Shown in pieces: positions 23,429 through 47,586 of a stretch of DNA of 64,000 bases. Origin of the DNA: Dolomitihabitans soli. Its GTDB lineage: Bacteria; Actinomycetota; Actinomycetes; Streptosporangiales; Streptosporangiaceae. The number at the start of each line of letters is the position of its first letter. Position 1 is the stretch's first letter. Made by a program: the position numbers and the translations under genes. The stretch lies in assembly GCF_022213955.1 (NCBI RefSeq), contig NZ_JAKNTW010000007.1, forward strand, positions 1-64,000, read 5' to 3'. The notes under the pieces were generated by a model. That model did not search any database. It was given only the letters and a program-made list of their open reading frames with translations, and was not told the DNA's origin.

Positions 23429-23468
23429 TGGGATCTGGCCCACTTTTCGAAAAGTGGGCCAGATCCCA
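23429..23468. mobile_element. 40-bp perfect palindrome built from two ISL3-type terminal repeats, with 8-bp flanking direct repeat
   Basis: Each arm reads TGGGATCTGGCCCACTTTTC and the two arms meet at TTCGAA with no spacer. The outer 13 bases GGGATCTGGCCCA are identical to the ends of the ISL3 element at 31860-34338. AGCCGGAG occurs at 23421-23428 and again at 23468-23475, an 8-bp direct repeat, the target-duplication size known for ISL3. The right copy shares one base with the palindrome. This looks like a minimal non-autonomous element, two ends with nothing between. It could also act as a hairpin downstream of the AraC-type gene, but no U-tract follows. Confidence 0.7.
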
Positions 23469-28837: not shown

Positions 28838-28874
28838 CTCCGGAGATTCCCGGCCATTTACCGGCGGACCTTAC
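28838..28874. repeat. 37-bp inverted repeat, right copy (pairs with 27161-27197)
   Basis: It begins CTCCGGAGATTCCCGGCC and ends GCGGACCTTAC. It also contains the stop codon of the STAND/TPR gene (TAA at 28873-28871), so the 3' end of that gene may have been defined by an insertion or inversion here. Confidence 0.75.
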
Positions 28875-31396
28875 GCCCTAGCCCGCCCGGTCCAGTTGGC
28901 GAGGTCGTGCCGTGTAACCAAGGTATCGGGGTGATCAGCGCCCAGGACTCGCTCGCGGATGGGCAGCAGCGCGGCCAGCTGGTCGCGGGCGGCGACCGGG
29001 TCCCCCGCCTGCCCCGTCCAGTTGGCGAGGTCGTGTCGGTTGGCCAAGGTGTGGGGGTGGTCGGTGCCCAGGACTCGCTCACAGATGGGCAGCAGCGCGG
29101 CCAGCTGGTCGCGGGCGGCCGCCGGGTCCCCCGCCTGCCCCGTCCAGCGGACGAGGGCGTGTCGAACGGTCAGGGTTTCGGGATGTTCAGGGCCTTCAAC
29201 GCGTTCGCAGATGGGGAGTAGGGCAGCGAGCTGATCGCGGGCAGCGGCCGCGTCCCCCGCCAGCCCGGTGAAGTAGGCGAGCTGGTGCCATGTGTCTAAC
29301 GTGCGCGGGTGCTCGGCGCCCTGGACGCGTTGGCGGATGGGGAGCAGGGCGGCGTACTGGTCGCGGGCAGCGGCCGCGTCCCCCGCCCACCCGGTGAAAT
29401 GGGCAAGATTGTGTCGGGTCCTGAGGGTGTCGGGGTGCTCGGCGCCCTGGACGCGTTGGCGGATGGGGAGCAGGGCGGCGAGCTGATCGCGGGCGGCGGC
29501 CGCGTCACCTGCATCCCCTATCCAGTCGGCGTAGTCGTGTTGGGTCCTTAGGGTGTCGGGGTATTCGGCGCCCTGGACGCGTTGGCGGATGGGGAGCAGG
29601 GCGGCGAGCTGATCGCGGGCGGCAGCCGCATCCCCCGCCAGCCCGGTGAAGATGGCGAGATGATGCGAGGTCTCCAAGGAGTGGGGGTGGTCGGCGCCCT
29701 GGACGCGTTGGCGGATGGGGAGCAGGGCGGCGAGCTGATCGCGGGCAGCGGCCGCATCCCCCGACTGCCCCGTCCACTCGGCGAGGTTGTGCCTGGTGGT
29801 CAGGCTGTCGGGGTGTTCAGCGCCAAGGTGCTCGGTGCGGTGGTCGCACAGCTGCCTGGCCAAAGCGCGAGCGGTCCGGGCGTCGCCAGCGGCGCCGAGA
29901 TACGTGGAGATTTCGAGAAGGGCATCAGACCCGGGAGCCAGGACGGTGAGGCCATGCGGCAGCAGGCGCCGGTAATCAGGCCAGGCGGCAGGTACGTAGG
30001 GTGTGCCGGGCAGGGCCTGCTCCAGGATGGTGTTGGCGACGGCAGACCAAGCGTTGCGCTGGCCGTCGGTGAGCCGATCGAGGGTGACGGCCTGGATCAG
30101 GCGGTGCATCGAGACCAGCCCGTCATGCGGTCGACTGATCAAGCAGTAGCGGCGCAGCGCGGCCATCGCAGTGTTGACCTGCAGGCGTCCAGCGGGGAGC
30201 AGACTTAGCTGCTTCTTGGCGCCCTTGCCGTCACCGAGTCCGACGAGCGAGTCAACAGTGAGGTCGTCAAGCAAACGGTGGTAAGGGATGTCCTCAGGCG
30301 CGTAACAGGCCAGCAGCCGTAGCAGGGCGATCGCCTGCGGGTGGGTGCCGGTGAGCTGGTCGAAGGCGGCCTGCCAGGTGGAGGTGACCTTCTCGGCATA
30401 ACCCCAGGGCTTGCCCTCGGCGAGCAGCGCCGGCCGGTGGCGGGTCAGCAGGTCGAGGTAGCTGCTGGGGTCGGTGCCGGTTTCGGCCATGTAGGCGCCA
30501 GCCTGCTCCAGCGCCAGTGGCAGGCCGCCGAGTTTGGCCGCCACGGCGGCCGCCGCCTGCGCATCCTCGCGACCGCTGCGCTCCAGCAGGAAGGCGCTGG
30601 CCGGACCGGAGTCCAGAACGGGCAACTCCAGGCCATGCAGGTCCGGCCAGCTTCCCGACCGGCTGGTGATCAGGACATGCCCGGAGCCGGTGGGCGGCAG
30701 GAGGCCATGGAGGGCGTCGGCGTCGGGCGCGTTGTCGAAGATCAGCAGCCATCGGCCAGGATGGGCGTCGAGTACAGCGTGCACCTGACGTACGGGATCG
30801 GCCCGGTGAGCCTCCTGCGCGCCGAGGTGGGCGGCTAACTCGGCGAACGCGGCCGACAACACGGTGGGATCCTCGGCGGGCAGATGCCATGCCAGTTGGT
30901 ATTCGTGCTGGTAGCGGTGGCTGTATTCGGTTACCAGGCTAGTCTTGCCGATGCCGCCCAGGCCATGGACCGCCACCCAGTAGGGCAATGTCGAGGCGTT
31001 GGTCAGGCGGTCGTGCAGGCTGGGCAGCGTCTCATCACGGCCGACCAGGTACAGCGGGCGCGGCATCAGATGGAACGGTCGAGCGGGCGTCCGTGGCGCT
31101 GTCATGTCCGCTGGCTCCAGGGCCTTGCTCGGTTCCGGCGGTAAGGACGCGGGAGCGGAAGGCGGACGTCGTTGCAGCCATACCCCTAGCCCACCGAGCA
31201 GCAGCCCAGCCACCATGCTGATCACGCTGGCACGCTTGTCGAGCACGTCCAGCAGATCTGTGGGGAGGTTCAGCGGGTCAGCAAGGAAGAACCCGGCCAT
31301 GCCGGCCAGCAGCGTCACCAGGGCCGTCATCCAGGCCAGCACCCACGGCCAGCGCCGAGGCCGTGGCTCACCCGGCTGAGGAGGGGAGGCCGTCAC
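28871..31396 (-). CDS. Membrane-anchored STAND (NB-ARC) ATPase with eight near-identical TPR-like repeats
   Basis: A GTG at 31396 (VTASPPQPGEPRPRRWPW) gives 841 aa; its GGAGG is very close, so the start is uncertain, and a longer frame upstream is low-complexity. Order: two transmembrane helices (WVLAWMTALVTLLAGMAGFFL; VISMVAGLLLGGLGVWL), an NB-ARC ATPase with P-loop VHGLGGIGKTSLVTEYSHRY, Walker B WLLIFDNA, a VLITSRSG sensor and GLPLALEQAGAY, then eight 42-residue repeats (consensus HPDTLRTRHNLAxWTGxAGDAAAARDQLAALLPIRQRVxG). The protein stops mid-repeat at TGRARA. STAND proteins are nucleotide-gated signalling switches. Some act in phage or conflict response; the effector here is not obvious, and the two membrane helices may be the output. 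Repeat homogeneity suggests ongoing repeat turnover. Confidence 0.78.
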   Translation of the reverse strand: MTASPPQPGEPRPRRWPWVLAWMTALVTLLAGMAGFFLADPLNLPTDLLDVLDKRASVISMVAGLLLGGLGVWLQRRPPSAPASLPPEPSKALEPADMTAPRTPARPFHLMPRPLYLVGRDETLPSLHDRLTNASTLPYWVAVHGLGGIGKTSLVTEYSHRYQHEYQLAWHLPAEDPTVLSAAFAELAAHLGAQEAHRADPVRQVHAVLDAHPGRWLLIFDNAPDADALHGLLPPTGSGHVLITSRSGSWPDLHGLELPVLDSGPASAFLLERSGREDAQAAAAVAAKLGGLPLALEQAGAYMAETGTDPSSYLDLLTRHRPALLAEGKPWGYAEKVTSTWQAAFDQLTGTHPQAIALLRLLACYAPEDIPYHRLLDDLTVDSLVGLGDGKGAKKQLSLLPAGRLQVNTAMAALRRYCLISRPHDGLVSMHRLIQAVTLDRLTDGQRNAWSAVANTILEQALPGTPYVPAAWPDYRRLLPHGLTVLAPGSDALLEISTYLGAAGDARTARALARQLCDHRTEHLGAEHPDSLTTRHNLAEWTGQSGDAAAARDQLAALLPIRQRVQGADHPHSLETSHHLAIFTGLAGDAAAARDQLAALLPIRQRVQGAEYPDTLRTQHDYADWIGDAGDAAAARDQLAALLPIRQRVQGAEHPDTLRTRHNLAHFTGWAGDAAAARDQYAALLPIRQRVQGAEHPRTLDTWHQLAYFTGLAGDAAAARDQLAALLPICERVEGPEHPETLTVRHALVRWTGQAGDPAAARDQLAALLPICERVLGTDHPHTLANRHDLANWTGQAGDPVAARDQLAALLPIRERVLGADHPDTLVTRHDLANWTGRARA
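28880..29860. repeat. 126-bp tandem repeats (about eight units) in STAND gene
   Basis: Nucleotide units of 126 bp encode the 42-residue repeats. Blocks such as GCGGATGGGGAGCAGGGCGG recur at near-constant spacing and are nearly identical, which invites copy-number change by recombination. Confidence 0.85.
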
Positions 31397-31723
31397 TCCT
31401 CCAGCGTGACGCTGCGACCACGTCCAGCGCGCATACGACGCAAACTCGTTATCGCCCGCCGAGCATGTCTCGCTGGGCGCCGACCCGGTTGCGGCACGTC
31501 GTGGATCAGGTGCCGGGCTTGGGCGGGAGCGTGGTGGTCGTGGCGGAGCGCACGGCTTACCACCTGGCGGTCCCGCCCAGGGGCAAGGGGCACTCGGAGC
31601 GGGGCCGCCACCTCGTGAACGTCTGGCCGGAGGAACACCCCCGTGGCCTCCGACCGGACCTGGCCCCCGACGGCGTCCCCCAAACGCCACCCCCGCTCGG
31701 GGGCTACCTCATCCCAAAGAAGA
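31397..31723. other. Region between STAND gene and terminator hairpin, no secure gene
   Basis: A plus-strand frame reads RHVVDQVPGLGGSVVVVAERTAYHLAVPP and then Pro/Arg-rich sequence up to the hairpin at 31724. It could be a decayed 3' end of a plus-strand gene, but I see neither a start nor a recognised domain. Confidence 0.3.
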
Positions 31724-31912: not shown

Positions 31913-32668
31913 TCAGGTTCCGGTGAGTGCTTGGGTGATGGCAAGGGCTTGGTCGGGGGTGAAGGCACGGGGGTGCCATGGGCATCGGCGACTGTAGCGT
32001 TCGTCGCAGACCAGGGCGCCGTTGGCCAGTTTCGCCCAGTGGGCGGGTTGCCAGTAGGCCTGGTTCTTCCGGAGCAGGGTTTCGGCGACGTGCTGGGGTG
32101 CTGGGCTGGCGGTGGTGTGGGTCAGCGCCGCGATGAGGGCGGGTACTGCGCTGTCGGGTAGGTCCGCATCTCCCAGAGCGGGCAGCAGCAGGAGGAGCCG
32201 CCTGGCAGGGTCCCCGGTGCTGGTTGGGGCGGAGGTGGGTGGTTGGTGGGCGATGGTGATCAGTTCGTGCCAGGAGAGTCCTGGCCCGACGAAGGAGCCC
32301 TCAACGGCGGCCAACTGAAGATCGTGTGGCCAGTCCGGATGTGAGAGCAGGTAGTCCAGGCCCATGTCGTCGGCCAGGTTGCGGTAGATGACGTGGAGGG
32401 CGGCTCCGCTGTGAAGCGGGACCGTGAAGACGGGCCAGTGGTCGGGGTCGAACAACTGCTCGCAGAGTTCTTCGGCGTCCTCGGTGTCCACGCCGAAGTC
32501 GCGCTGGGGGTCATCGAGCCCGGTGGCCCCGACCATCATGGCGTGGAGCGCCCACAAGACCGGGTCGATGAGGAGTGCGGAGCCGTCGACCAGCGGATCG
32601 TTCTCATAGCCCGTGATCAGCACGCTGGGATGGTCCCAGTCCGACGCCGTTGCGGGCAATGAGTGCAT
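31913..32668 (-). CDS. ISL3 passenger gene of unknown function
   Basis: The 251-aa protein starts at ATG 32668, inside the 3' end of the transposase, and ends 53 bp from the left terminal repeat. It is acidic with many Leu/His/Trp (SWHELITIAHQPP, LLLLLPALGDADLPD, HWAKLANGALVCDERYSRRCPWHPR). The middle resembles helical-repeat surfaces; a Cys pair lies near the C-terminus. No transposase, regulator or enzyme signature is recognised. The coding pattern is good and the frame is intact while the transposase is broken, which suggests it is expressed or recently acquired. Length and place suggest cargo rather than an accessory transposition gene. Confidence 0.65.
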   Translation of the reverse strand: MHSLPATASDWDHPSVLITGYENDPLVDGSALLIDPVLWALHAMMVGATGLDDPQRDFGVDTEDAEELCEQLFDPDHWPVFTVPLHSGAALHVIYRNLADDMGLDYLLSHPDWPHDLQLAAVEGSFVGPGLSWHELITIAHQPPTSAPTSTGDPARRLLLLLPALGDADLPDSAVPALIAALTHTTASPAPQHVAETLLRKNQAYWQPAHWAKLANGALVCDERYSRRCPWHPRAFTPDQALAITQALTGT

Positions 32669-34278
32669 GGCCTGCCGCTGTGAGCAGGACCCGTTTGCGT
32701 AGCAGCGGAAGCCCGGCGCGGCCGAACATCTGCCGTTTGATCATCTTGATGTGGTTGACGCGGCCCTCGACGGGGCCGGAGTTCCAGCGGCTGGTCAGCC
32801 CAGCAGTGACGGCGTCGAGGTCCTGTTCCAAGCCCTTGGCGAAGGAGGAGATGCCGGACAGGCCGGCGGAGTGGGTGTCGCTGATCCATTGGGGGAGATC
32901 GTGGCCGGTCAGCTGGGTGAGCATGGCGGCAAAGACGCGAACGTGCTGGTCTGCGGCAGCCAGTTCGGGACAGCGTTCCAGCAAGGCTTTGAGCTGGGGG
33001 CCGTTCGTCCTCGGTGAGGGAGTCGGGATGGCGGGTGAGCCAGCCGGTGACCTCGCGGACGGTCGGTGGAGGCGCGGCCAGCGGCGCCTTGGCCGGACGG
33101 TGTCCGGCCAGGTGATCGCGGAGGTTGGAGTAGCTGCCGGTGTAACCCAGTGCGCGGATCTCCCGGAACAACTCGGCGAAGTTGCTGCAGCCTTCGTCCA
33201 GACGCTGGTGCCGGTGCGGTTTGAAGGGGTCCAGCATGCTGGCGCGCGGTGCCTGCCAGCGCCCGTCGACCAGTTCCTGCCAGGTCGCGGCGCGCGCATA
33301 GCGCTGCACGGTGTGCCGTCCCCAGCCCAGATGCCGCGCGATCGCCCGGATCGCGTACCCCTCGGCCAGCAGCGCGTGCACCTGGGCATGGTGCCGCCGG
33401 GCCCGCTCGGCGAACTTCCCGGTCGGCTCCGGCGGCACTGGATCAGGTGGCGTAACCGGTGAGAACTCCCGGACGCCGCCGGGCTCTTCCAGCACGGGCT
33501 CGGGCAAGCACGAGCGGTGCGCGGCCACGCACTTATCCACCGCTTTGACCAGATTGGCCCACAGATGCCAGCGATCGGCGACCTGGATGGCCTGTGGCGC
33601 CCCGGTGCGCGCCCCCTCGGCGTAGGCGCCTGAACGGTCCCGGCAGATCACCTCGACATCGGGATGCGCGGTCAGCCAGTCCGCGAGTACCGCGGCGTCC
33701 CGGCCCTCCAGCAACTCCAGCGGCGCGCCGGTCTCGCAATCGATGAGCACGGTGCCGTACCGGTGACCACGTTTGATCGCGAAATCGTCGACGCCCAGCA
33801 CCCGCGGGGCGTGGGCGGCCGGATCGGGGATCGCCATGACCAGCCGTAACAGCGTCGAGCGGCTAGCCGCCGCCCGCAACGCACCCGCCAGCCGTGCCCC
33901 CGCCCGCCCGGCCACCGCGACCGCGATGTTGCGCAGGAACTCCACTAGTAGCGGCGTCTTGCGGCCGTGCCGGACGGTCGGACCGGGCACCTGCTCGGCG
34001 AACGTCTTGCGATCACAGGGCATTTCATCGCAGAACAGGCGGCGGACCTGGAGCACGATCGTCGCCTCCCGGCCGCCCACCGCGGTGTCGGCGAGCCGAC
34101 GCCGATACCGGCTATGAGTCCTGGACGAGGAGGAACCGCACCCCGGGCAGGTCACCGCCACTGACCGTGTCCGCGCCCAGATCCACACCCCACCGGCTGT
34201 CTGCTCGACCCGCTCGACCTCGACTCCGGCCAGATGCGGCAGCAACATCCCAAGATCATGTTTTCCCACGTGGCACAT
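32604..34278 (-). pseudogene. ISL3-family transposase with single-base frameshift
   Basis: From 34278 the frame shows the N-terminal zinc-binding/HTH region (VTCPGCGSSSSRTHSRYRRRLADTAVGG, RRLFCDEMPCDRKTFAEQ) and the DDE domain with Asp in VLGVDDFAIKRGHRYGTVLID and VICRDRSGAYAEGA. After TEDER, at a run of five C near 33003, it leaves the frame. Removing one C restores DERPQLKALLERCPEL and a full C-terminus with the catalytic Glu in NSGPVEGRVNHIKMIKRQMFGRA, ending at 32604. With the shift the Glu is lost from the main frame, so the enzyme is likely inactive unless ribosomal slippage or a sequencing error is involved. Confidence 0.85.
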
Positions 34279-36825: not shown

Positions 36826-37740
36826 TCGCCAACATCTTCACCACCTGGGACAACACCTACGGCGGCTGCTTGGTTCGGGAGGCGGTCGCCGCACAGCTGC
36901 GCTTCGCGGAGGGGATGCTGAAGAGGTCCAGGTGCTCGACCAAGCTGCACGATCCGCTGTACTCGGCAGTGGGGCGGCCGCGTTCATGGCGTTCGACGCC
37001 TACGCCCACGACGACGCCCGGAAGATGTTCGCGTTCGCGCTCGCCTGCGCCGAGGAGGCGAACGACTGGCACCTGCGGGCCAAGGTGCTCTCCAGCATGG
37101 CGCGGCAAGCCATCTGGGTGGGGGGATGCCGACAACGGGCTCACACTGGTGGAGTTCGCTCTCGTGCGGGCCGACCGGCTAACCGCCGGCGAGCGGGCCA
37201 TGCTGCGGTCTGCTCAGGCTCGGGCGTTCGCCAAGCTGGGCCGCGTGTCGGAAACCACCTGGAAGGCCATCAAGGACGCCGACATGGAGTTCCACCGCAT
37301 CCGCCCCATCGAGGAGAAGCCGTGGATGCGGTACTACGACGCTGCCCAGCACCAGGGGGACACCGGGCATGCGGTGTTCGACCTGGCGATCGACGAGCGG
37401 CTTGTCGGCAAGGTCATCGACGGGCAGGTCAGCGACGAGGCGGTCAGCGCCACGTACGTCGGCGAGGCGTCGACGCGGCTGGCCGGCGCGGTGGCCGGGC
37501 ACACCGCCGCCTACGTCCGGTCCCGCGCGATCAGCGGCATCAAACTCGCCTCCCTGACCATGGTGGCCGGTGACCCGGAGGAGGCCGCCGAGATCGGCGA
37601 ACGCGCGGTTGCCGACGCGGGCACGGTTCGCTCCCGCCGGGCCCAGGACGACATGCGCGAGCTCACCCGGTTCGCCCGCCCGCACGAGCGGCGGACATCT
37701 GCCCGACCGGTTCACCCCCACGGGCGTGGGGAGCAGTCAG
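36826..37740 (+). pseudogene. C-terminal sensor region of an XRE-type regulator, frameshifted
   Basis: The frame shows FTTWDNTYGGCLVREAVAAQLRFAEGML, then in another frame AAAFMAFDAYAHDDARKMFAFALACAEEANDWHLRAKVL, then back to DNGLTLVEFALVRADRLTAGERAML..LAIDERLVGKVIDGQVSDEAVS. These are TPR-like helices of actinobacterial XRE regulators. Compensating shifts occur near 36960 and 37125, and the HTH N-terminus is absent. The 3' end runs into a CRISPR repeat at 37709, which supplies the last codons and stop, so the natural end is lost. Confidence 0.65.
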
Positions 37741-37856
37741 CCCGGTCCGCGCGCTGAGCCTCGATCGCCGGTTCACCCCCACGTGGGGGTGAACCGACCA
37801 GGTCGAAGAACAATTCGACTGGGGTGACCCGCTCCCCACGCCTGTGGGGGTGAACG
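37709..37856. CRISPR. Rearranged mini CRISPR locus (type I-E-like repeats) with internal inversion
   Basis: A full 28-nt repeat lies at 37709-37736 (GGTTCACCCCCACGGG...GGGGAGCAG), followed by a 33-nt spacer (37737-37769). Next comes a half repeat joined to its own reverse half (37770-37795), forming the palindrome centred on CCCCCACGTGGGGG. A 33-nt spacer (37796-37828) and a degenerate repeat in the opposite orientation (37829-37856) follow. The repeat matches the type I-E class of actinomycetes. No cas gene is in the window. Confidence 0.85.
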
Positions 37857-37878
37857 GTCACGTCCACGGACGTGACCG

Positions 37879-37985
37879 CCTGCCCCACCGGTGAGAGCGC
37901 TCGAACTTCCGGGCAATGGCAACCCCCGTCGGAAGTCTCCCATCGGGCCCGCGATGGGATTCCGCCCGGAGCCGGCGTGGCCTGA
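37879..37985 (-). pseudogene. DUF2637 C-terminal remnant
   Basis: About 90 bp from 37879 match 40207-40296 (the 3' part of the DUF2637 gene) with roughly seven differences, reading ESHRGPDGRLPTGVAIARKFERSHRWGR. The rest of the gene is gone. The same C-terminus therefore flanks both CRISPR loci. Confidence 0.65.
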
Positions 37986-38086
37986 CCGGCCCATGCCACG
38001 CTCTTTACTGCACGTTGCCATACGATTACTGTAAGTAGAAAGCTCGGAGGGAAGCCCCGTTCCCCATCCACGACCGGAGGCAGTAA

Positions 38087-38644
38087 ATGTCCGTGCCGCT
38101 GACCGAATCCAACCTCGCCCTCGTATTCGCGGCGCTGGACACCACCGGAGACGGGCGCCTCAGCGCCGCTGACTTCACCATGCGAGCCGACCAGATGTGC
38201 GCCGCCATTGCGCCTGATCCCACCTCCGCCGCTCACCAGGATGTCCAGCGAGGTTTCGCCGCTTGGTGGGAACACCTGCGAGCCAGCGCCGATGCCAACC
38301 ACGACGGCTCAGTGAGCCCCAAGGAATACCTGGCCGCGGTCCGCACCCAGGCGGGAAACGCCGGCGACGACCTTGCCGAAGTGGTCATCGCCCTGGCCAT
38401 CCCGATGTTCAACGCGGTCGACAACGACGCCGACGGAACCATCTCCCTCCCGGAATACGTCCGGTTCTACACGGCCATCAACCTGGACAACCAGATCGGG
38501 GAAGATGCCTTCACCCGGCTCGACACCGATGGCGACGGCGGGATCTCCCAGCAGGAGTTCGTCACGGGTCTCCGCGCGATCTTCACCAGCAACGATCCCG
38601 GCGACCCAGGCACCTGGATGCTGGGCCAGGCGCCATCGTCCTAA
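38087..38644 (+). CDS. Calerythrin-like EF-hand calcium-binding protein
   Basis: ATG 38087 follows GGAGG. The 185-aa protein has four EF-hand loops: DTTGDGRLSAADF (about 17), DANHDGSVSPKEY (about 68), DNDADGTISLPEY (about 110) and DTDGDGGISQQEF (about 145), all with acidic residues at positions 1, 3, 5 and 12 well kept. This is the sarcoplasmic-calcium-binding/calerythrin architecture of actinomycetes, a cytosolic calcium buffer or sensor. It has its own promoter region in the lower-GC stretch at about 38000-38070. It is intact and undisturbed, unlike its surroundings. Confidence 0.88.
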   Translation: MSVPLTESNLALVFAALDTTGDGRLSAADFTMRADQMCAAIAPDPTSAAHQDVQRGFAAWWEHLRASADANHDGSVSPKEYLAAVRTQAGNAGDDLAEVVIALAIPMFNAVDNDADGTISLPEYVRFYTAINLDNQIGEDAFTRLDTDGDGGISQQEFVTGLRAIFTSNDPGDPGTWMLGQAPSS

Positions 38645-39120
38645 CCTGTTCCTGAGAGGACAGAAGGGGACGTTCTGTCGACCACGGTCTCGCTCGAGAG
38701 CACCGCTACACCCACCGGCGTCGCGTGGGCACGCGGGTGCTGCTGCGTCACCACGACCACACCGCCCCGCCGGCGGTCTGTTGCGGTCGATGGCGTTGCT
38801 GGTCGACGACAATGGCGCCCAGAAGGTGGGTCGTTCCTTGGTCGAGGCAGTCGCGGCGAGCCTGTCAGGCCGCCAGCCGCGCCTGACCCTCACCTCGTTG
38901 TCTCCTCACGTCATCCAGCGCGCTTCGACCTGAGTCGAGGCCGGCGCCGGCTCCAAATGCTGACGTGTACGTCGGCCTGCGGCATGATCCGTGCATCCGT
39001 GCCGGTCTTCGGCGTGTCTCCGAAGGTCGGCCCGCAGCCGCGGGCCATCGCCTCGTTGTCCCGATCGAGCACGCCACACTCGCCGCAGCGCCTGTCCGTT
39101 TACCGCAGAAGGGGTGCCCG
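38645..39120. other. 476-bp region without a convincing gene
   Basis: Open frames here are Arg/Thr/Pro-rich in every phase and lack ribosome sites. I see no hairpin terminator of note after the EF-hand gene. Confidence 0.4.
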
Positions 39121-39618
39121 TCACCCCGCGTTGACATGCGGGCAGAGCGGACGCTGCTGGTAGCCGCCGGGTATGCCGGTGCCGACGGCGGCCCAGAACG
39201 GCCGTGACTCGGCGAAGTGGCCGCCGAGGGTGTGCCAGCCGCCCAGGCCGGGGTTTTCAGCGCGCAGCGCAGCGAGCCCCGCAGTAGCCAGCCCGTACCG
39301 TTGATACCGCGGCAGGGTGTACGGGTGCTCGACCCAGCCGAGCCCGCAACGGCGGCAGATCTGGTAGTCGACGGCGAAGGCAAACTCGCCATCAAGGTTG
39401 GCCGCACGCCTGCGCCAGCCAGTCCGCTCAGCCGAGATGGTGTCCTGCCATGGGGTGTCCAATAGGGGGATGACCGGCCAGCCATTCCGCCTGCCGAGTC
39501 GCCCCCGGGTGAGCCACTGCAGCACCTCACGCCATGGCTCGCGACCGGACGCGCGCCCCACTTCGTGGGTCTGGCCGGCCAGACGCAGCGCCGCTCGCCT
39601 GTCGTCATCGATCGCCAT
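39121..39618 (-). CDS. GNAT-like acetyltransferase-related protein
   Basis: From ATG 39618 the protein is 165 aa: GEFAFAVDYQICRRCGLGWVEHPYTLPRYQRYGLATAGLAALRAENPGLGGWHTLGGHFAESRPFWAAVG. The YQRYGLATAGLAAL segment fits the acetyl-CoA-binding motif A (Q/RxxGxG/A) with the second Gly replaced, and ESRPFW the motif B region. A CRRCG pair could bind zinc. A GTG at 39639 is an alternative start. The substrate is unknown. The 5' end lies 107 bp from CRISPR repeat 1, with no link implied. Confidence 0.6.
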   Translation of the reverse strand: MAIDDDRRAALRLAGQTHEVGRASGREPWREVLQWLTRGRLGRRNGWPVIPLLDTPWQDTISAERTGWRRRAANLDGEFAFAVDYQICRRCGLGWVEHPYTLPRYQRYGLATAGLAALRAENPGLGGWHTLGGHFAESRPFWAAVGTGIPGGYQQRPLCPHVNAG

Positions 39619-39725
39619 GCGCTCATCGTGCCCGACGGATACGTGCGCGGCCACAGACACTGGCGGACCTTTAGCAGCGCGTCCTCCAGCGAGTTGGCAA
39701 TGGTCTTCCTCGATCTGATGGCCCC

Positions 39726-39936
39726 GGTTCTCCCCCACGGGCGTGGGGAGCAGGTGACCCGGCCCGCGTGTGGTCTCCCACGCAGGGGTTCACCCCCACG
39801 GGCGTGGGGAGCAGGCGCTCATCCCGCGGTTGCAGGTGACGACCAGCGGTTCACCCCCACGGGCGTGGGGAGCAGGCATCGAGTGGGTCACCCGCCGCGT
39901 CGTGGCTGGGTTCACCCCCACGGGCGTGGGGAGCAG
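39726..39936 (-). CRISPR. Four-repeat type I-E-like CRISPR array, no cas genes nearby
   Basis: Repeats of 28 nt lie at 39726-39753, 39787-39814, 39848-39875 and 39909-39936, with three 33-nt spacers and an exact 61-nt period. The last three repeats are identical (GGTTCACCCCCACGGG...GTGGGGAGCAG). The first has one change (GGTTCTCCCCC), as expected for the leader-distal end. By analogy with type I-E repeats the array is read on the minus strand, with the leader to the right at 39937 onward. Confidence 0.92.
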
Positions 39937-40167
39937 CTTCGTGACCTGCCAAGATACGAGTGACCTGCGGCGATGTGAATGTCGGGGTTTGTCGGTAATC
40001 CACAGGGGATGATCGAGGCACCAATCCAAGCCTCCTGCTATTTGCAATGATCCAGACCACCGCAGTGTGACATTCCAGCCAGGATGCGTCTCCGTGATCG
40101 CGGTTCGGCCGCCGAACCTCCGAGCGCACCCGACGGCCGCTTCTTCACACCGATACAGCAAAGCCCT
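39937..40167 (-). promoter_or_regulatory. Probable CRISPR leader/intergenic region
   Basis: This 231-bp interval adjoins the non-degenerate repeat and is AT-richer than its surroundings (TTTGCAATGATCC, GGTAATCCACAGGGGATGATC). Position and composition fit a leader, but no -10/-35 can be named with confidence. Confidence 0.45.
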
Positions 40168-40818
40168 CTAGCTTAACTCGCCACCGACTCCGGCTCGCTT
40201 GACGAGCCTGCCCCACCGGTGCGAGCGCTCGAACTGCCGGGCAATGGCATCCCCCGTCGGAAGTCCCCCATCGGGCCTGCGATTGGATTCCGCCCACTGC
40301 CATGCCAGACGCTGAAGCGACCTCTGCCCGTCACCCCGCCGAGTTCGGGGGTCGGACTGGCCAGGGTCAATATCAACGCTCGGCTCCTGGAGCGCTCCAA
40401 GCTCACGCCCGATCACACCCTCCTGTCCAGCAGCACGGCGGACCTGATTCATCAGCATTTCGTAGGCGCCGATCAGCGCGAAGCTGGGCCAGGCTGCGAT
40501 CACACGGCCGATCAACGACGGCTCGGCGACCGCCACGTTCGCACCGAGACTGGCCAGACTGCTGACCGCCAGCAGCGCCCAGGCCAAACGCCCACCAGTC
40601 TTACCGTTACGACTGGCCAAGAGCAGAGACATCGACGCGGCGATGATGGTGCCATCAACGGACAACGGAATGAGCGCCGCAGCCAGCCCATCCTCCCCAT
40701 GCCGCAGAGCGAGCTCATGCATATGACGGAACGACACCACAGCCGCCACCAACGCCACGATCAGCACGCTGCCCGTCGTCGTCCGCCGGATCCACCGCTC
40801 CCCCGACACACCCACCAT
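40168..40818 (-). CDS. DUF2637 membrane protein (actinomycete mobile-element transfer/spread type)
   Basis: The 216-aa protein begins near MVGVSGERWIRRTTTGSVLIVALVAAVVSFRHMHELALRHGE and has four hydrophobic segments: GSVLIVALVAAVVSF, ALIPLSVDGTIIAASMSLLL, LAWALLAVSSLASLGANVAVA and GRVIAAWPSFALIGAYEMLM. The (S)VDGTIIAAS and WP motifs are the DUF2637 signature. The C-terminal tail is charged (RPDGGLPTGDAIARQFERSHRWGRLVKR). DUF2637 genes are common on conjugative plasmids and integrative elements of actinomycetes, next to spd/tra genes; none are seen here. A diverged copy of its 3' end lies at 37879-37985. Confidence 0.75.
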   Translation of the reverse strand: MVGVSGERWIRRTTTGSVLIVALVAAVVSFRHMHELALRHGEDGLAAALIPLSVDGTIIAASMSLLLASRNGKTGGRLAWALLAVSSLASLGANVAVAEPSLIGRVIAAWPSFALIGAYEMLMNQVRRAAGQEGVIGRELGALQEPSVDIDPGQSDPRTRRGDGQRSLQRLAWQWAESNRRPDGGLPTGDAIARQFERSHRWGRLVKRAGVGGELS

Positions 40819-40876
40819 CCCCGCTCACCCCTGCCCCAGCAGGAACCGCGTGGTCAGCGTGAACGCGTGTGCAATT

Positions 40877-40894
40877 GGTTCGAGTCCCCCCACC
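40877..40894. other. tRNA 3'-end-like sequence, possible att scar
   Basis: GGTTCGAGTCCCCCCACC looks like a tRNA T-loop and 3' acceptor, but no 5' tRNA part folds with it. Such 3' tRNA pieces mark attachment sites of integrated elements. It separates the relic-rich DUF2637 side from the intact MFS/ROK region. Confidence 0.4.
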
Positions 40895-40971
40895 GTCATG
40901 ACCCCCCACCCGGACCCCTCGGTCGGCTGGCCGCGGGTCTCCTCCGACCCTCGGCACGTGGTCGAAGCGGC

Positions 40972-42198
40972 TCAGGCCACCCGGCTCGGCAGGGGCGGCT
41001 CGTCCTGCTTCGCAGGGATCATGGCGCGAATGCCGGGCACCCCGGCGAGAGCGACGATCGCGGCGAACACGGCGGGAATCACCAGGCCGACGGGCAGTGA
41101 GAAGGACTCCGCGACGAAGCCCAGGACGGCCGGGCCGGCCAGCAGCCCCGTGTAGCCGCAGGCGGTGACCAACGCCAGGGCGCGGCTGACGGAGCCGCCG
41201 GACGCGCCGACCGCGCTGAAGATCACCGGGACCACGGTGGCCAGTCCGACGCCGGCCAGTCCCCACCCCGTCCACGCGCAGACCACCCGGAGCACCTCGG
41301 GCGCCGCCTGGGAACCCAGCACGAGGAGGTATCCACCGGTCGCGAACATCCCCGCGAGGCGGATCGTGCGCACCGCGCCGAGCCGGGCCCGCAGCGGATC
41401 GCCGAGCAGTCGCACGACGGTCATCGCCACCGAGAAGATCGTGTACGCCAGCGGCGCCAGGGCCGGATCGGTGTCCAGCACCCAGCGCGCGTGCAGAGCG
41501 GCCCAGTCCATCGCCGCGCCTTCTGACAGGTGCCCGCCGAAGGCCGCCAGTCCCAGCAAAGCGACGATCCCCCATCTGGTCGAGTCGGCGAGCGACGCCC
41601 CTTGCACGTCTCCGGAGCGTGCGGGAGCGGGCAGCAGCAGCCGGGCGATCGGCAGATAGGCGAACGGGACCACGACCGCGGCGCCGACGAGCAGCACCTG
41701 CCCGTCGACCCCGGCCTTCAGTCCCGTGGCGGTCAGCGCTCCGCCGACCGCGCCGCCCAGGCTCCACACGCCGTGGAACGCCGAGATGATCGGCCGGCCG
41801 TACCGGTGCTCGACCTCGACCGAATGGGTGTTCATCCCCACCTCCAGGATGCCGATGCCCATTCCGAAGAACACCGCGAGCACGGCCAGCCAGAGATATG
41901 ACGGGGCCAGGGCGGGCCCGAGCAGCAGTACGGCCGAGGCGGGCCCGCTGAACCAGCACACGCTCCTGCTCGACCATCTCTCGACCAGCGGCCCGGCGAG
42001 CAACATGGCGGCCAGCGCTCCGGCCGAGACCAACAGCAGCGCCGTGCCCAGGCGCGCCGGTCCGAGGTCGAGGCGGTCGTTGAGCGCGGGCAGGCCCGCC
42101 GACCACATGCCCACGGTGAGTCCAAGGAGGCAGAAGTAGCCGAAGACGCCGACGCGGGCTCGGACAGCGACCCGATCAGGGGGAATTATTTTGTTCAC
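40972..42198 (-). CDS. Major facilitator superfamily transporter
   Basis: The likely start is GTG 42198 (VNKIIPPDRVAVRARVGVFGYFCLLG); the frame is open upstream but overlaps the divergent gene. The 408-aa product has twelve predicted helices in two halves, with motif-A-like LVERWSSRSV after helix 2 and a family feature GMGIGILEVGMNTHSVEVEHRYGRPIISAFHGVWSLGG, as in fucose-permease/YbjJ-type MFS proteins. It diverges from a ROK regulator across about 15 bp, so sugar or sugar-derivative transport controlled by that regulator is inferred. Confidence 0.85.
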   Translation of the reverse strand: MNKIIPPDRVAVRARVGVFGYFCLLGLTVGMWSAGLPALNDRLDLGPARLGTALLLVSAGALAAMLLAGPLVERWSSRSVCWFSGPASAVLLLGPALAPSYLWLAVLAVFFGMGIGILEVGMNTHSVEVEHRYGRPIISAFHGVWSLGGAVGGALTATGLKAGVDGQVLLVGAAVVVPFAYLPIARLLLPAPARSGDVQGASLADSTRWGIVALLGLAAFGGHLSEGAAMDWAALHARWVLDTDPALAPLAYTIFSVAMTVVRLLGDPLRARLGAVRTIRLAGMFATGGYLLVLGSQAAPEVLRVVCAWTGWGLAGVGLATVVPVIFSAVGASGGSVSRALALVTACGYTGLLAGPAVLGFVAESFSLPVGLVIPAVFAAIVALAGVPGIRAMIPAKQDEPPLPSRVA

Positions 42199-43485: not shown

Positions 43486-43680
43486 CGTACCAAATGGGGA
43501 TCTACGCTCGCGAGCCGGCCGACACCCGCCGCGGTGCACAGCAGGCCCGCGATCGCCGCGTACTTCATGCCGATCGCCCCGATGATCCGGCTCACCTGGG
43601 TGATGGCGAGCAGGAGGGCGGCGCAGAAGGTCTACCGGCTGCGGGACTACGCTCGGCGGCGGAGTCCCGCAGGCGGCCGG

Positions 43681-46600
43681 TCACCTCAGGGCGAACGCCC
43701 GGGTGATCGTCTCCTCGACCTTGGCGCCGGCCGAGTCCCAGGCCGTGACCTTCAAGGACGCATGGCCGGTGCGGCCCCGGTGGTCGGCCCGCGCCCGGTA
43801 CGTGCCATCGTCCCGCCGGTCGACCCGGACCTCGGCCCACGTCGCGCCGTCGTCGTAGGAGATCCGCGCGGTCGCGCCCTTGACGGGGCGGGACTCGGCG
43901 CCGGTGGGAGCCCGGACCGTGAACGCGAACGTGTGGCGCCCGCGGGCGGGCACGGCGTTGCGCAGGTCGACGCCCAGCTCGTAGTCGATCTTGAGCAGCG
44001 GCAGTACCTCCCGCCTCGCCGTGTGAGCGGACGGGAACGTCCAGGTGGTGGCCGTCTTCGTGCCCGTCCCCCACCACTCGGCGGTACGCGTCGACGACTG
44101 CTCCAGCCGGTACACGGCCCGCTCGGCCGGGAGGGCGACCGTCGTGTTGTACAGCTGAGTGCCCTCGCCGATCAGCGTGTCCCCCCGGTACAACCGGACG
44201 GCGGCCTGGTCGGCGGAGCCGTACAGGAATCCGAAGTGGTCGGGGTCGGAGTCGCCGAACTCCGGCACCATGAACCGCGCGGTGTCCCCGGTGCGCTGCG
44301 CGGGCAGGCCGTACTCGGCGTACGCGCTCGACAGCCTCCTGGGTTGCCCGGGGCCGCCGGGTGCGAACCAGTGCTCGGTGAGCGACTGGCCCGCCCGGTA
44401 CGTCCGGTCGCCGGTGATCAGCTCCGCGCCGCCCTCGATGGAGCGCTGGAACCGGGCACGCACCGTCAGGTCACCGGGTGTCGTCCACTCCTCACGTTCC
44501 ATCGCACCGCTGATCGGCGACGGCTTGATCATCATGCCGCCCACCATGGGCCGGAAGCTCGCGCGCGTGCCGTACCCCTGTTCGTCGGACGTGCCGTGGT
44601 AGTACGCCCGGATGCGGGTCATGGTCTTCGGCGAGATCTCGTACCGCAGGTCGCCCGGCACCTTGTCGTGCCACCGCAGCACGTCGTACCAGTACGGGCT
44701 CACCGAGGTGCCGTCCAACCGGACCCGGCCCGCCTCGCGGAGCGCCGCCGCCTCCTCGTGCCCCGTGGTGAACGAGGGGACGGCCAGCCCGTTACCCCAG
44801 TACGCCAGGGCGCCAGGCGCCTCGTTCATGGCGAGCACGACGATCGGGGCGCCCGCCTCGATGGCGGACTCCACAGCCTCGAACGCGTCCCGGTCCGGCT
44901 GGAACGTCAGCAGCGCCAGTTTCCCCCGCAGGTCGACGCCGGTGAAGTCCGAGCGGGCGCCGGCGTCGTACACGGGCAGGTCGCGCCGCCCGTCGAACCT
45001 CGGCCCGTACTCCATGTGGATCAGCCGGACCTCCTTGCCGCCCGGCACCGTCCGCGCCCTGGCGATGGGCGCGTACAGATCCCAGTGGTGGTACATCTCG
45101 AAATGACCGAGTTCCGCCTTCGGGATCGGTGCGGCGTAGGCGCGCTCGGTGGCCGGGGTCATCATCCACGACGACGACAGGCTGGCCTCGGGGACCGCGC
45201 CACTCCTGATGTGCCCGATCGTGACCTGGGAGTGATCGACCCGTTCGGCCGTGTCCAGCCGGATCCGGCTCGCGCGGCGGGCGTCGATCGGCACGGTCGC
45301 GGGGCCGGTGACCGTCACGTCCGGGTCACCCGCGAAGACGATCTCGGAGGACTGCGCGCCCGCCTGCCTGCGCTCCAGCATCGTGGCCATCATCGAGTAA
45401 CGCCCGGCGGGAAGCTCGGCGACGAGCCTGCCGTCCTCCGGGATCGGCAGGTCGCGGAACTCGCCGGTGTCCAGGTCCAGGACGTCGAGGCTGGACTCGG
45501 CGCCCGGCGCGCCGCCGTCCCGGTAGCCGACCGGGATCTCGACGCGATGCTTCACCGGGCTGATGGTCTGGGCGATCGCCACCGATACCGACACGCCCTC
45601 GGCGGTGCCGCGCAGCCGCCCGGCGTACCGGCCTCGGGTGCCCTTGGCGGGGTCGGCGGTGACGATCACGGGAACCCGGCCGCTCGCGGGCACCTCGACG
45701 TGGTCCGCGGACAGCGTGAACATGCCGTCGGGCGCCGGCTCGCCGCCGGGTTCGCGCACGTCGAGGGCGAGGTCGAGGGTGATCGGGGTGGTGCCGGAGT
45801 TGACGATCTCGACGGTCGAGGCGGTCTTCGCGCCCTCGGGCGTGACCGTGGGCACACTCACCGTCGCCGGGACGGCGTGCACCGGCTGGGCGACCGCCCT
45901 GGCCACGTCCACGCGTCCGGAGCCGACCACGTCGATCGCGCCCTCCACCGGCTTGGCGGCGCTCACCAGCGCCGCCTTGAGCTGCGGGCCGGTCCACTCC
46001 GGGTGCCGCTGGGCGAGCAGCGCGGCCGCACCCGCGACGTGTGGGGTGGCCATCGACGTGCCGTTCAGCGAGGTGTAGTCGTCGTCCACGGGGCTGCCCA
46101 GCGAGGTGCCCTCGGCACGGGCGGCGACGATGCCGACCCCGGGCGCGCTGATCTCCGGCTTGAGGGCGTCGTCGCCGGCCCGCGGACCGCGCGAGGAGAA
46201 GTCCGCCGGGGCGTCAGCCTTGTCGACCGCCCCGACGGTGAGCGCCTCGTCGGCGGAACCCGGCGAGCTCACCGTGCCGGATTCGGGACCGGCGTTGCCC
46301 GCCGCGACCACGAACAGCGCGCCCGTCTCGGCGGTCAGCGTGTTCAGCGACCGGCTCAGCGGGTCCGTGCCGTCGGTGGGCCCGTTGGTGCCCAGGCTCA
46401 TGCTGATGACGTCGGCGTCCTTGCCCGCCGCCCACTCCATCCCGGCGATGATCCAGGACAGGCTGCCGGAGCCCTGGTCGTTGAGGACCTTCCCGACGTA
46501 GAGGGAGGCGCCGGGCGCGACGCCCTTGCGCTTGCCGCCGGCCGCCGTACCGCTGCCCGCGATGGTGGCCGCCACGTGCGTGCCGTGACCGTTGTGGTCG

Positions 46601-47379
46601 GCGGCGTCGGTCGTGTCGGAGAAGTTGACGCTTTCGGCGACCCGGCCGCCGAGATCGGGGTGCGTGGCGTCGACACCCGTGTCGAGCACCGCCACCTTCA
46701 CCCCCTTGCCGTCGTATCCCGCCTGCCACACGGCCGGCGCGCCGATCTGCGGCACGCTGGTCTCCAGCGTCGCCTTCACCGGACGGTCGAGCCACACCTT
46801 GGCGTACGGCGCGGCGGCGGAACGGTCACGCCCGGCGTCGCCGAGGGCCTGCCAGAAGTCCGCGGCCTGGGCCGGGGCGCGTTCGACGGCGGTGGCGCCC
46901 GCACTGGGCAGCGACCGGGTCCTGCGGGCGCCCGCGGGCACCGGCCGGTCGGCCAGGGCCTGCTTCACGTCCGTGCCGTAGGAGAGGATCAGCGGGAGCG
47001 ACGCGCGATGGGCGTCGTCGTAGCCCGCCTCGATGAGGTCGGTGACGTTGAACAGCTCCCGGTCCAGCCGATCGGCCGCCAGCATCGGCCGGGCCGTGTC
47101 CGGGATCACGTACAGGTCGCCGCGCTCGGTCACGGTCTTGAACGCCGGTTGCGGCCGCCCGGCGGTCCCCGGCCGCGCGGTGGCGGCCTGGCGGCCGTCC
47201 GGGTAGGTCTGGACGTCGATGACATCACCGGTGACCAGCGTCAGCGTACGTTTGGACACGGCTGAGGCGGGCGGCGTCACCGGTGGTTTCCCCGGTTCCG
47301 CACCGGCCGGTACGGCCGGCCCCGAGGCCAGCACGACCGCACCGGCCGTCACCGCGACGACGCGTGAAAGTAAACGCAT
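43681..47379 (-). CDS. Secreted S8 (subtilisin-like) serine peptidase, large
   Basis: ATG 47379 has GAGG upstream and starts a signal peptide (MRLLSRVVAVTAGAVVLASG). The 1232-aa protein has the full catalytic set: Asp in VKVAVLDTGVDATHPDL, His in NGHGTHVAATIAG, oxyanion Asn in FVVAAGNAGPESG and Ser in NGTSMATPHVAGAAAL. A region of about 200 residues after the signal is likely a propeptide. Past residue about 540 come beta-rich domains and a PA-like insertion (KLALLTFQPD, APIVVLAMNEAP). The length fits large actinomycete exoproteases. It would digest extracellular proteins. The gene stands alone, and the antisense strand is long and open only by codon bias. Confidence 0.93.
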   Translation of the reverse strand: MRLLSRVVAVTAGAVVLASGPAVPAGAEPGKPPVTPPASAVSKRTLTLVTGDVIDVQTYPDGRQAATARPGTAGRPQPAFKTVTERGDLYVIPDTARPMLAADRLDRELFNVTDLIEAGYDDAHRASLPLILSYGTDVKQALADRPVPAGARRTRSLPSAGATAVERAPAQAADFWQALGDAGRDRSAAAPYAKVWLDRPVKATLETSVPQIGAPAVWQAGYDGKGVKVAVLDTGVDATHPDLGGRVAESVNFSDTTDAADHNGHGTHVAATIAGSGTAAGGKRKGVAPGASLYVGKVLNDQGSGSLSWIIAGMEWAAGKDADVISMSLGTNGPTDGTDPLSRSLNTLTAETGALFVVAAGNAGPESGTVSSPGSADEALTVGAVDKADAPADFSSRGPRAGDDALKPEISAPGVGIVAARAEGTSLGSPVDDDYTSLNGTSMATPHVAGAAALLAQRHPEWTGPQLKAALVSAAKPVEGAIDVVGSGRVDVARAVAQPVHAVPATVSVPTVTPEGAKTASTVEIVNSGTTPITLDLALDVREPGGEPAPDGMFTLSADHVEVPASGRVPVIVTADPAKGTRGRYAGRLRGTAEGVSVSVAIAQTISPVKHRVEIPVGYRDGGAPGAESSLDVLDLDTGEFRDLPIPEDGRLVAELPAGRYSMMATMLERRQAGAQSSEIVFAGDPDVTVTGPATVPIDARRASRIRLDTAERVDHSQVTIGHIRSGAVPEASLSSSWMMTPATERAYAAPIPKAELGHFEMYHHWDLYAPIARARTVPGGKEVRLIHMEYGPRFDGRRDLPVYDAGARSDFTGVDLRGKLALLTFQPDRDAFEAVESAIEAGAPIVVLAMNEAPGALAYWGNGLAVPSFTTGHEEAAALREAGRVRLDGTSVSPYWYDVLRWHDKVPGDLRYEISPKTMTRIRAYYHGTSDEQGYGTRASFRPMVGGMMIKPSPISGAMEREEWTTPGDLTVRARFQRSIEGGAELITGDRTYRAGQSLTEHWFAPGGPGQPRRLSSAYAEYGLPAQRTGDTARFMVPEFGDSDPDHFGFLYGSADQAAVRLYRGDTLIGEGTQLYNTTVALPAERAVYRLEQSSTRTAEWWGTGTKTATTWTFPSAHTARREVLPLLKIDYELGVDLRNAVPARGRHTFAFTVRAPTGAESRPVKGATARISYDDGATWAEVRVDRRDDGTYRARADHRGRTGHASLKVTAWDSAGAKVEETITRAFALR

Positions 47380-47586
47380 CCCTGAGGTTCCTCCCTGTCC
47401 CGGGCGGCACATCGGTCACACCGCGCCAGAACAGATCTTCGGCAGCCGAGATATATCGCGCCAGCACTTCTCGATGGCGGTTGGCCGACAAGTCGTGATC
47501 CCGCCACCCCCGGCCGCACCCGCGCCTTCGCCTGCTCCCGGGCCTCAGCGTGCCGATCGGCTCACCGCGCACCCGCCGGGGACGTG

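Follow-up and report, generated by a model that had tools for sequence, protein, structure and literature searches.

Structure of the CRISPR locus

The window, which is the whole 64,000-nt stretch of Dolomitihabitans soli DNA analysed here, contains two CRISPR arrays of one repeat family, the first of which is interrupted by an inverted junction (Table 1). The repeat is type I-E-like, and the locus has direct repeats of approximately 29 nt, unique spacers of approximately 32 nt and a regular period, as in type I-E arrays. Six repeat matches with at most three mismatches were found in the window as compared with 0.00 in 100 shuffles. At the junction, a half repeat (L) is fused to the mirrored half of another repeat (L'), giving the perfect palindrome at 37769–37796 that was reported in the preliminary description; perfect palindromes of at least 28 nt are expected at a frequency of 0.0017 per window of equal composition. 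Each neighbouring repeat is in an exact 61-nt register with its matching half of the palindrome. A forward repeat followed by a spacer was also present as first described, with the spacer being 32 nt in length and not 33 nt.

Table 1. Coordinates of repeats, spacers and associated features around the inverted junction (positions in the window)
Feature	Position	Strand	Remarks
Intact repeat of array P	37708–37736	+	29 nt, sequence CGGTTCACCCCCACGGGCGTGGGGAGCAG; tail GCAG
Spacer S1	37737–37768	+	32 nt
L, half repeat of array P	37769–37782	+	nt 1–14 of the 29-nt repeat
L', half repeat of array Q	37783–37796	-	mirrored nt 1–14 of the array Q repeat; with L, a perfect 28-nt palindrome
Spacer S2	37797–37828	-	32 nt
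Degenerate repeat of array Q, reversed	37829–37857	-	trailer-end-like; 3 mismatches; tail GCGG
90-bp stretch	37878–37967		93 % identical to 40206–40295
Second, ordinary array	39725–39936	+	4 repeats of the same repeat family
Start of the leader of the second array	39937–40005	+	right side of array

The leader of the second array resembles that of an array on another contig of the same genome (C36) and both leaders of the cas locus of a relative (G101), which places the leader to the right of forward repeats. Leader comparison identified leaders for the second window array and for the right-hand part of C36; next to the array with the L–L' junction, none was seen. A 90-bp direct repeat with 93 % identity between its copies adjoins both window arrays and also the C36 leader. 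The copy beside the L–L' array is matched on C36 over 68 bp. The window copy at 40206–40295 corresponds approximately to the 3' end of a gene for a DUF2637 protein, and the copies at the second window array and the C36 array lie on the leader side. This direct repeat may have been left behind by a mobile element carrying such a gene.

No cas genes were detected by Padloc and Pfam among the ORFs flanking the window array, and a search of the D. soli genome for Cas7e (PF09344) found none. A weak Cas11e match inside a TPR/NB-ARC protein was judged to be due to chance. An Rfam search of positions 37000–41000 of the window gave no match. The preliminary description had suggested matching the spacers to phages; no convincing match was obtained for the window spacers.

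Several other features of the window were recorded. A perfect 40-nt palindrome, far above chance length, is located at 23429–23468. The TPR/NB-ARC protein (28871–31690, minus strand) is STAND-like and has many near-identical TPR repeats. A transposase gene of the ISL3 family (32617–34278, minus strand) is apparently frameshifted relative to an overlapping ORF at 32604–33389. Two ORFs of 1243 aa occupy opposite strands of 43534–47412; by eye, the minus-strand ORF reads like a subtilisin-type secreted protease and the plus-strand ORF is probably its antisense shadow.

A reciprocal junction on a second contig

The whole D. soli genome (10.8 Mb, 81 contigs) was searched with the repeat, giving 17 repeat places on contigs C33, C36 and C77. 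On C36, a reverse repeat and a spacer are followed by GCTCCCCACGCCC joined directly to GGGCGTGGGGAGC, a mirrored pair of the remaining 15-nt repeat half (R'–R); to the right of this junction there is a spacer and then nine forward repeats with a leader. The window L plus the C36 R reproduces the repeat consensus with 0 mismatches, while the reverse complement of R' plus L' differs from the consensus by one base, which is the GCGG tail common to the reverse repeats of both contigs. Whole repeats can therefore be rebuilt from the window and C36 halves with no base lost. Because repeat ends are polymorphic (GCAG versus GCGG tails), the four halves can be sorted into two ancestral arrays. Their letters assign the left part of the window array and the right part of C36 to one former array (tail GCAG) and the left part of C36 and the right part of the window array to another (tail GCGG), and on the same grounds the exchange between the two arrays is read as conservative.

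The junction had initially been described as an inversion inside one array arising from recombination between opposite-oriented repeats. The partner breakpoint lies instead in another array, and half-repeat palindromes would not be expected from recombination of that type, which regenerates complete repeats. An inversion by homologous recombination of entire repeats was rejected on similar grounds, since both of its junctions would carry complete repeats whereas the junctions are L–L' and R'–R.

Contig C36 carries a gene that we take to be dnaE, the name being recognised from the start of the protein, and hence both loci appear to be chromosomal. If C36 is chromosomal, the simplest topology for this genome would be a large chromosomal inversion between two same-orientation arrays. 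A less simple possibility is that a segment flanked by convergent arrays was excised and later reinserted. A free circle or plasmid was not supported, as no terminal overlap of C36 was found and the contig carries dnaE. No recognisable leader was seen for the left half of C36, and when the D. soli sequences (window, C36 and C33) were compared by blastn with ten scar loci and with ten stretches from cas loci, no array flank was matched. Among the spacers of the C36 array there was one good match to phages; a spacer at L038:10899–10931 is 97 % identical to DnaQ-like genes of Arthrobacter phages Hestia and Isolde. On contig C33, a lone repeat (L039:9720–9748) lies outside any array with partial copies on either side.

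Recurrence of the junction in related and distant bacteria

A pattern search of 341 genomes of the family detected 16 L–L' places in 15 genomes. Two of these genomes were doubtful (G049 and G342) and three places had no array context (in G227, in G242 and at G275:C3:10448); following their exclusion, L–L' junctions with clear array context were present in 11 of 341 genomes. The junction is recurrent and not confined to D. soli. Spacing between the halves was restricted to three values, with nine junctions having none (N0, 14+14), one having four (N4, 14+18) and one having eight (N8, 18+18), such that the same base was cut in 9 of the 11 scar genomes. The flanking spacers of 10 of the 11 junctions were unrelated (15 of 32 positions identical in the best pair), indicating that the junction events were independent.

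Junctions of the R'–R type with array context were recognised in the family only in D. soli (C36) and G275. Two pattern searches for R'–R found array context for C36 alone, and the G275 pair was recognised separately; in this genome, R'–R and L–L' are 61 nt apart and share the same cut.

A scan of genome contigs for L..L' gave 18 stretches, with array context being seen in, among others, Acrocarpospora, Nonomuraea, Halomonas, Castellaniella and a Chloroflexi bin. In Castellaniella, L..L' and R'..R alternate several times within one array. The reverse repeats of Castellaniella caeni (L080) and Halomonas (L073) keep the loop letters of the forward repeat on the plus strand, so that, from these letters, the arms of the repeat look inverted and the core does not.

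Position of the break within the repeat

The predicted fold of the repeat has a 6-bp stem (nt 9–14 paired with 19–24) and a 4-nt loop (nt 15–18), with 14/15 and 18/19 as the two loop edges. The window cut was assigned to 14/15, although positions 13–15 are indistinguishable because of a CG dinucleotide. Breakpoints were at the predicted hairpin loop in both partners. The earlier placement of the break in the hairpin region of the repeat was correct, except that the predicted fold puts it at the loop edge and not in the stem. Energetically, the hairpin was predicted to be no more stable than those of shuffled repeats (z about -0.8), and hence extrusion of the hairpin is assumed.

A palindrome-independent test was applied to 80 genomes, in which facing intact repeats 6–108 nt apart were sought and the middle was left free. 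Matches were assessed by visual inspection of up to 80 letters each, with G206 and G275 being sequence-checked, and most were classed as not CRISPR. All seven of the recognised clear array junctions were at a loop edge, with N0 in six cases and N8 in one, and no junction was recognised within a spacer. Under a uniform distribution of breaks along the 61-nt period, this outcome would have a probability near 1e-21. The matches in G206 and G356 were same-orientation arrays, and G275 entered through another, slightly mutated junction (C3:115241). The scars of G101, G103, G251 and G355 escape this test, as one of their flanking repeats carries mutations or is absent.

Probable association of the junction with loss of cas operons

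Several of the examined cas loci sit between two convergent arrays and, where checked (G101), both array leaders point inward. Flanks of scars matched the surroundings of cas loci in three relatives. The right flank of the G005 scar is collinear over approximately 18 kb with the outside of the plus-strand array at the G356 cas locus, and 127 bp of the left flank match the outside of the minus-strand array of G356. One-sided matches were found between G103 and G101 (about 19 kb) and between G255 and G257 (about 370 bp). For the right-hand flank of G103, and for the left flank of G005 over most of its length, the compared cas locus gave no match. Cas7e was absent from 10 of the 11 scar genomes as compared with 186 of the 330 other genomes (one-sided P=0.019, kinship being ignored); the scar genome with Cas7e, G101, has it elsewhere.

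In the relatives, L–L' is best read as the scar of a cas-operon deletion between convergent arrays, with flank matches on both sides in one genome and on one side in two. Several related bacteria appear to have lost their CRISPR machinery through this junction. Deletion, the account given for most relatives, does not alone explain why the reciprocal junction was kept in the D. soli genome.

Proposed mechanism of junction formation

Given the observed junctions, with their reciprocity, recurrence and loop-edge position, it is probable that repeats of two arrays were cut at the loop edge and rejoined crosswise, with deletion of the cas genes in relatives, and a hairpin nuclease and Ku are the proposed agents. 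One repeat in each of two arrays would have been broken at the 5' edge of the 4-nt loop (14/15 of 29 nt), and crosswise rejoining would have created the window L–L' and the C36 R'–R while preserving every base. In relatives, an equal break in two convergent arrays flanking a cas operon would most likely have deleted the operon together with both leaders and left L–L' as a scar. The repeat hairpins would be extruded in vivo, the loop may be cut by SbcCD or a similar hairpin nuclease, or by another branched-DNA nuclease, and the ends may be sealed by Ku-dependent end joining. Cleavage at the hairpin loops of two repeats followed by end joining would explain the fixed N values. Ku was present in all 11 scar genomes, although nearly all actinobacteria of this kind are known to carry Ku and its occurrence tracks phylogeny. 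In three genomes outside the family that have N4 junctions (Halomonas, Castellaniella and Chloroflexi), no Ku was found. For these core-keeping junctions, exchange across the core is the simpler reading. A wider proposal, which we put forward tentatively, is that the hairpin of the I-E repeat may be a base-specific, conservative recombination site in the Streptosporangiaceae; exchange of any pair of repeats at the loop edge would then remove cas operons between convergent arrays and invert chromosome segments between arrays.

Conservative site-specific recombination of I-E repeats, of the serine type, is an unlikely alternative, in which a putative recombinase would exchange strands at the CG (nt 14–15 or, in mirror image, 18–19) and the self-complementary overlap would let sites join either way, giving both deletions and inversions. 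A conservative 2-bp CG exchange fits the junctions as well as hairpin cutting does: the reciprocal pairs of D. soli and G275 share one cut, the D. soli pair is exactly conservative with a 2-bp overlap, one base was used in 9 of 11 scars, and the repeats seen have CG at the cut. However, the symmetry of the repeat is centred on the hairpin and not on the CG, which is unlike a recombinase site, N4 and N8 variants occur, and no candidate enzyme was identified.

Exchange through microhomology or homology within the palindromic core of 16 nt, which would need no hairpin-specific enzyme, is less likely still. Forward and reverse repeats share the core in direct orientation, and in Castellaniella and Halomonas the core is retained in full at the junctions (N4), with the same one-strand core letters on both sides. 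Yet for repeats with a GGGC loop, homology amounts to 7 nt for N4 and 2 nt for N0, and N0 accounts for 9 of the 11 junctions.

A chimera formed by fold-back at the hairpin during library preparation or assembly, the outcome by which the preliminary description was to be refuted, is highly improbable: the assembly has 81 contigs and palindromes are prone to artefacts, but sequences beyond the palindrome, spacers included, are not mirrored between the two sides, a reciprocal R'–R junction exists with an exactly complementary breakpoint, the same junction occurs in assemblies of one (G359) and three (G355) contigs, and flanks match in relatives.

Comparison with known systems

The D. soli loci resemble type I-E CRISPR arrays in having a 29-nt repeat, 32-nt spacers, a 61-nt period, a leader and a phage-matching spacer, and differ from them in that two half-arrays are fused at half repeats and no Cas7e was found in the genome. 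Among the titles and opening abstracts of the literature searched, no description was found of a half-repeat palindrome junction with its reciprocal, or of such a junction as a scar of cas loss. The junction provides a recognisable, base-exact scar for loss of a CRISPR-cas locus and for array-driven rearrangement of the chromosome. It allows the question of why orphan arrays are so common to be recast as a reaction open to testing, for which the site and products are defined and candidate enzymes can be named. Where repeats of both orientations occur in one array, the arrangement may be real and need not reflect a misassembly. If the repeat hairpin is indeed a recombination site, orphan arrays would be the products of built-in self-excision and not of random decay.

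Both CRISPR loci as endpoints of rearrangements and palindrome-driven rearrangement are already known. Large chromosomal inversions associated with CRISPR loci were reportedly found in Thermotogales by DeBoy et al. 2006. These share with D. soli the use of CRISPR arrays as endpoints of chromosomal rearrangement; the differences here are the half-repeat palindromes and the breakage of the repeat at a fixed base. SbcCD/RecA palindrome-mediated rearrangement in E. coli generates inverted duplications about one palindrome (PMC3315005). A hairpin-prone sequence drives the rearrangement there, as is proposed here, whereas in the present case two short repeats are joined crosswise with no duplication.
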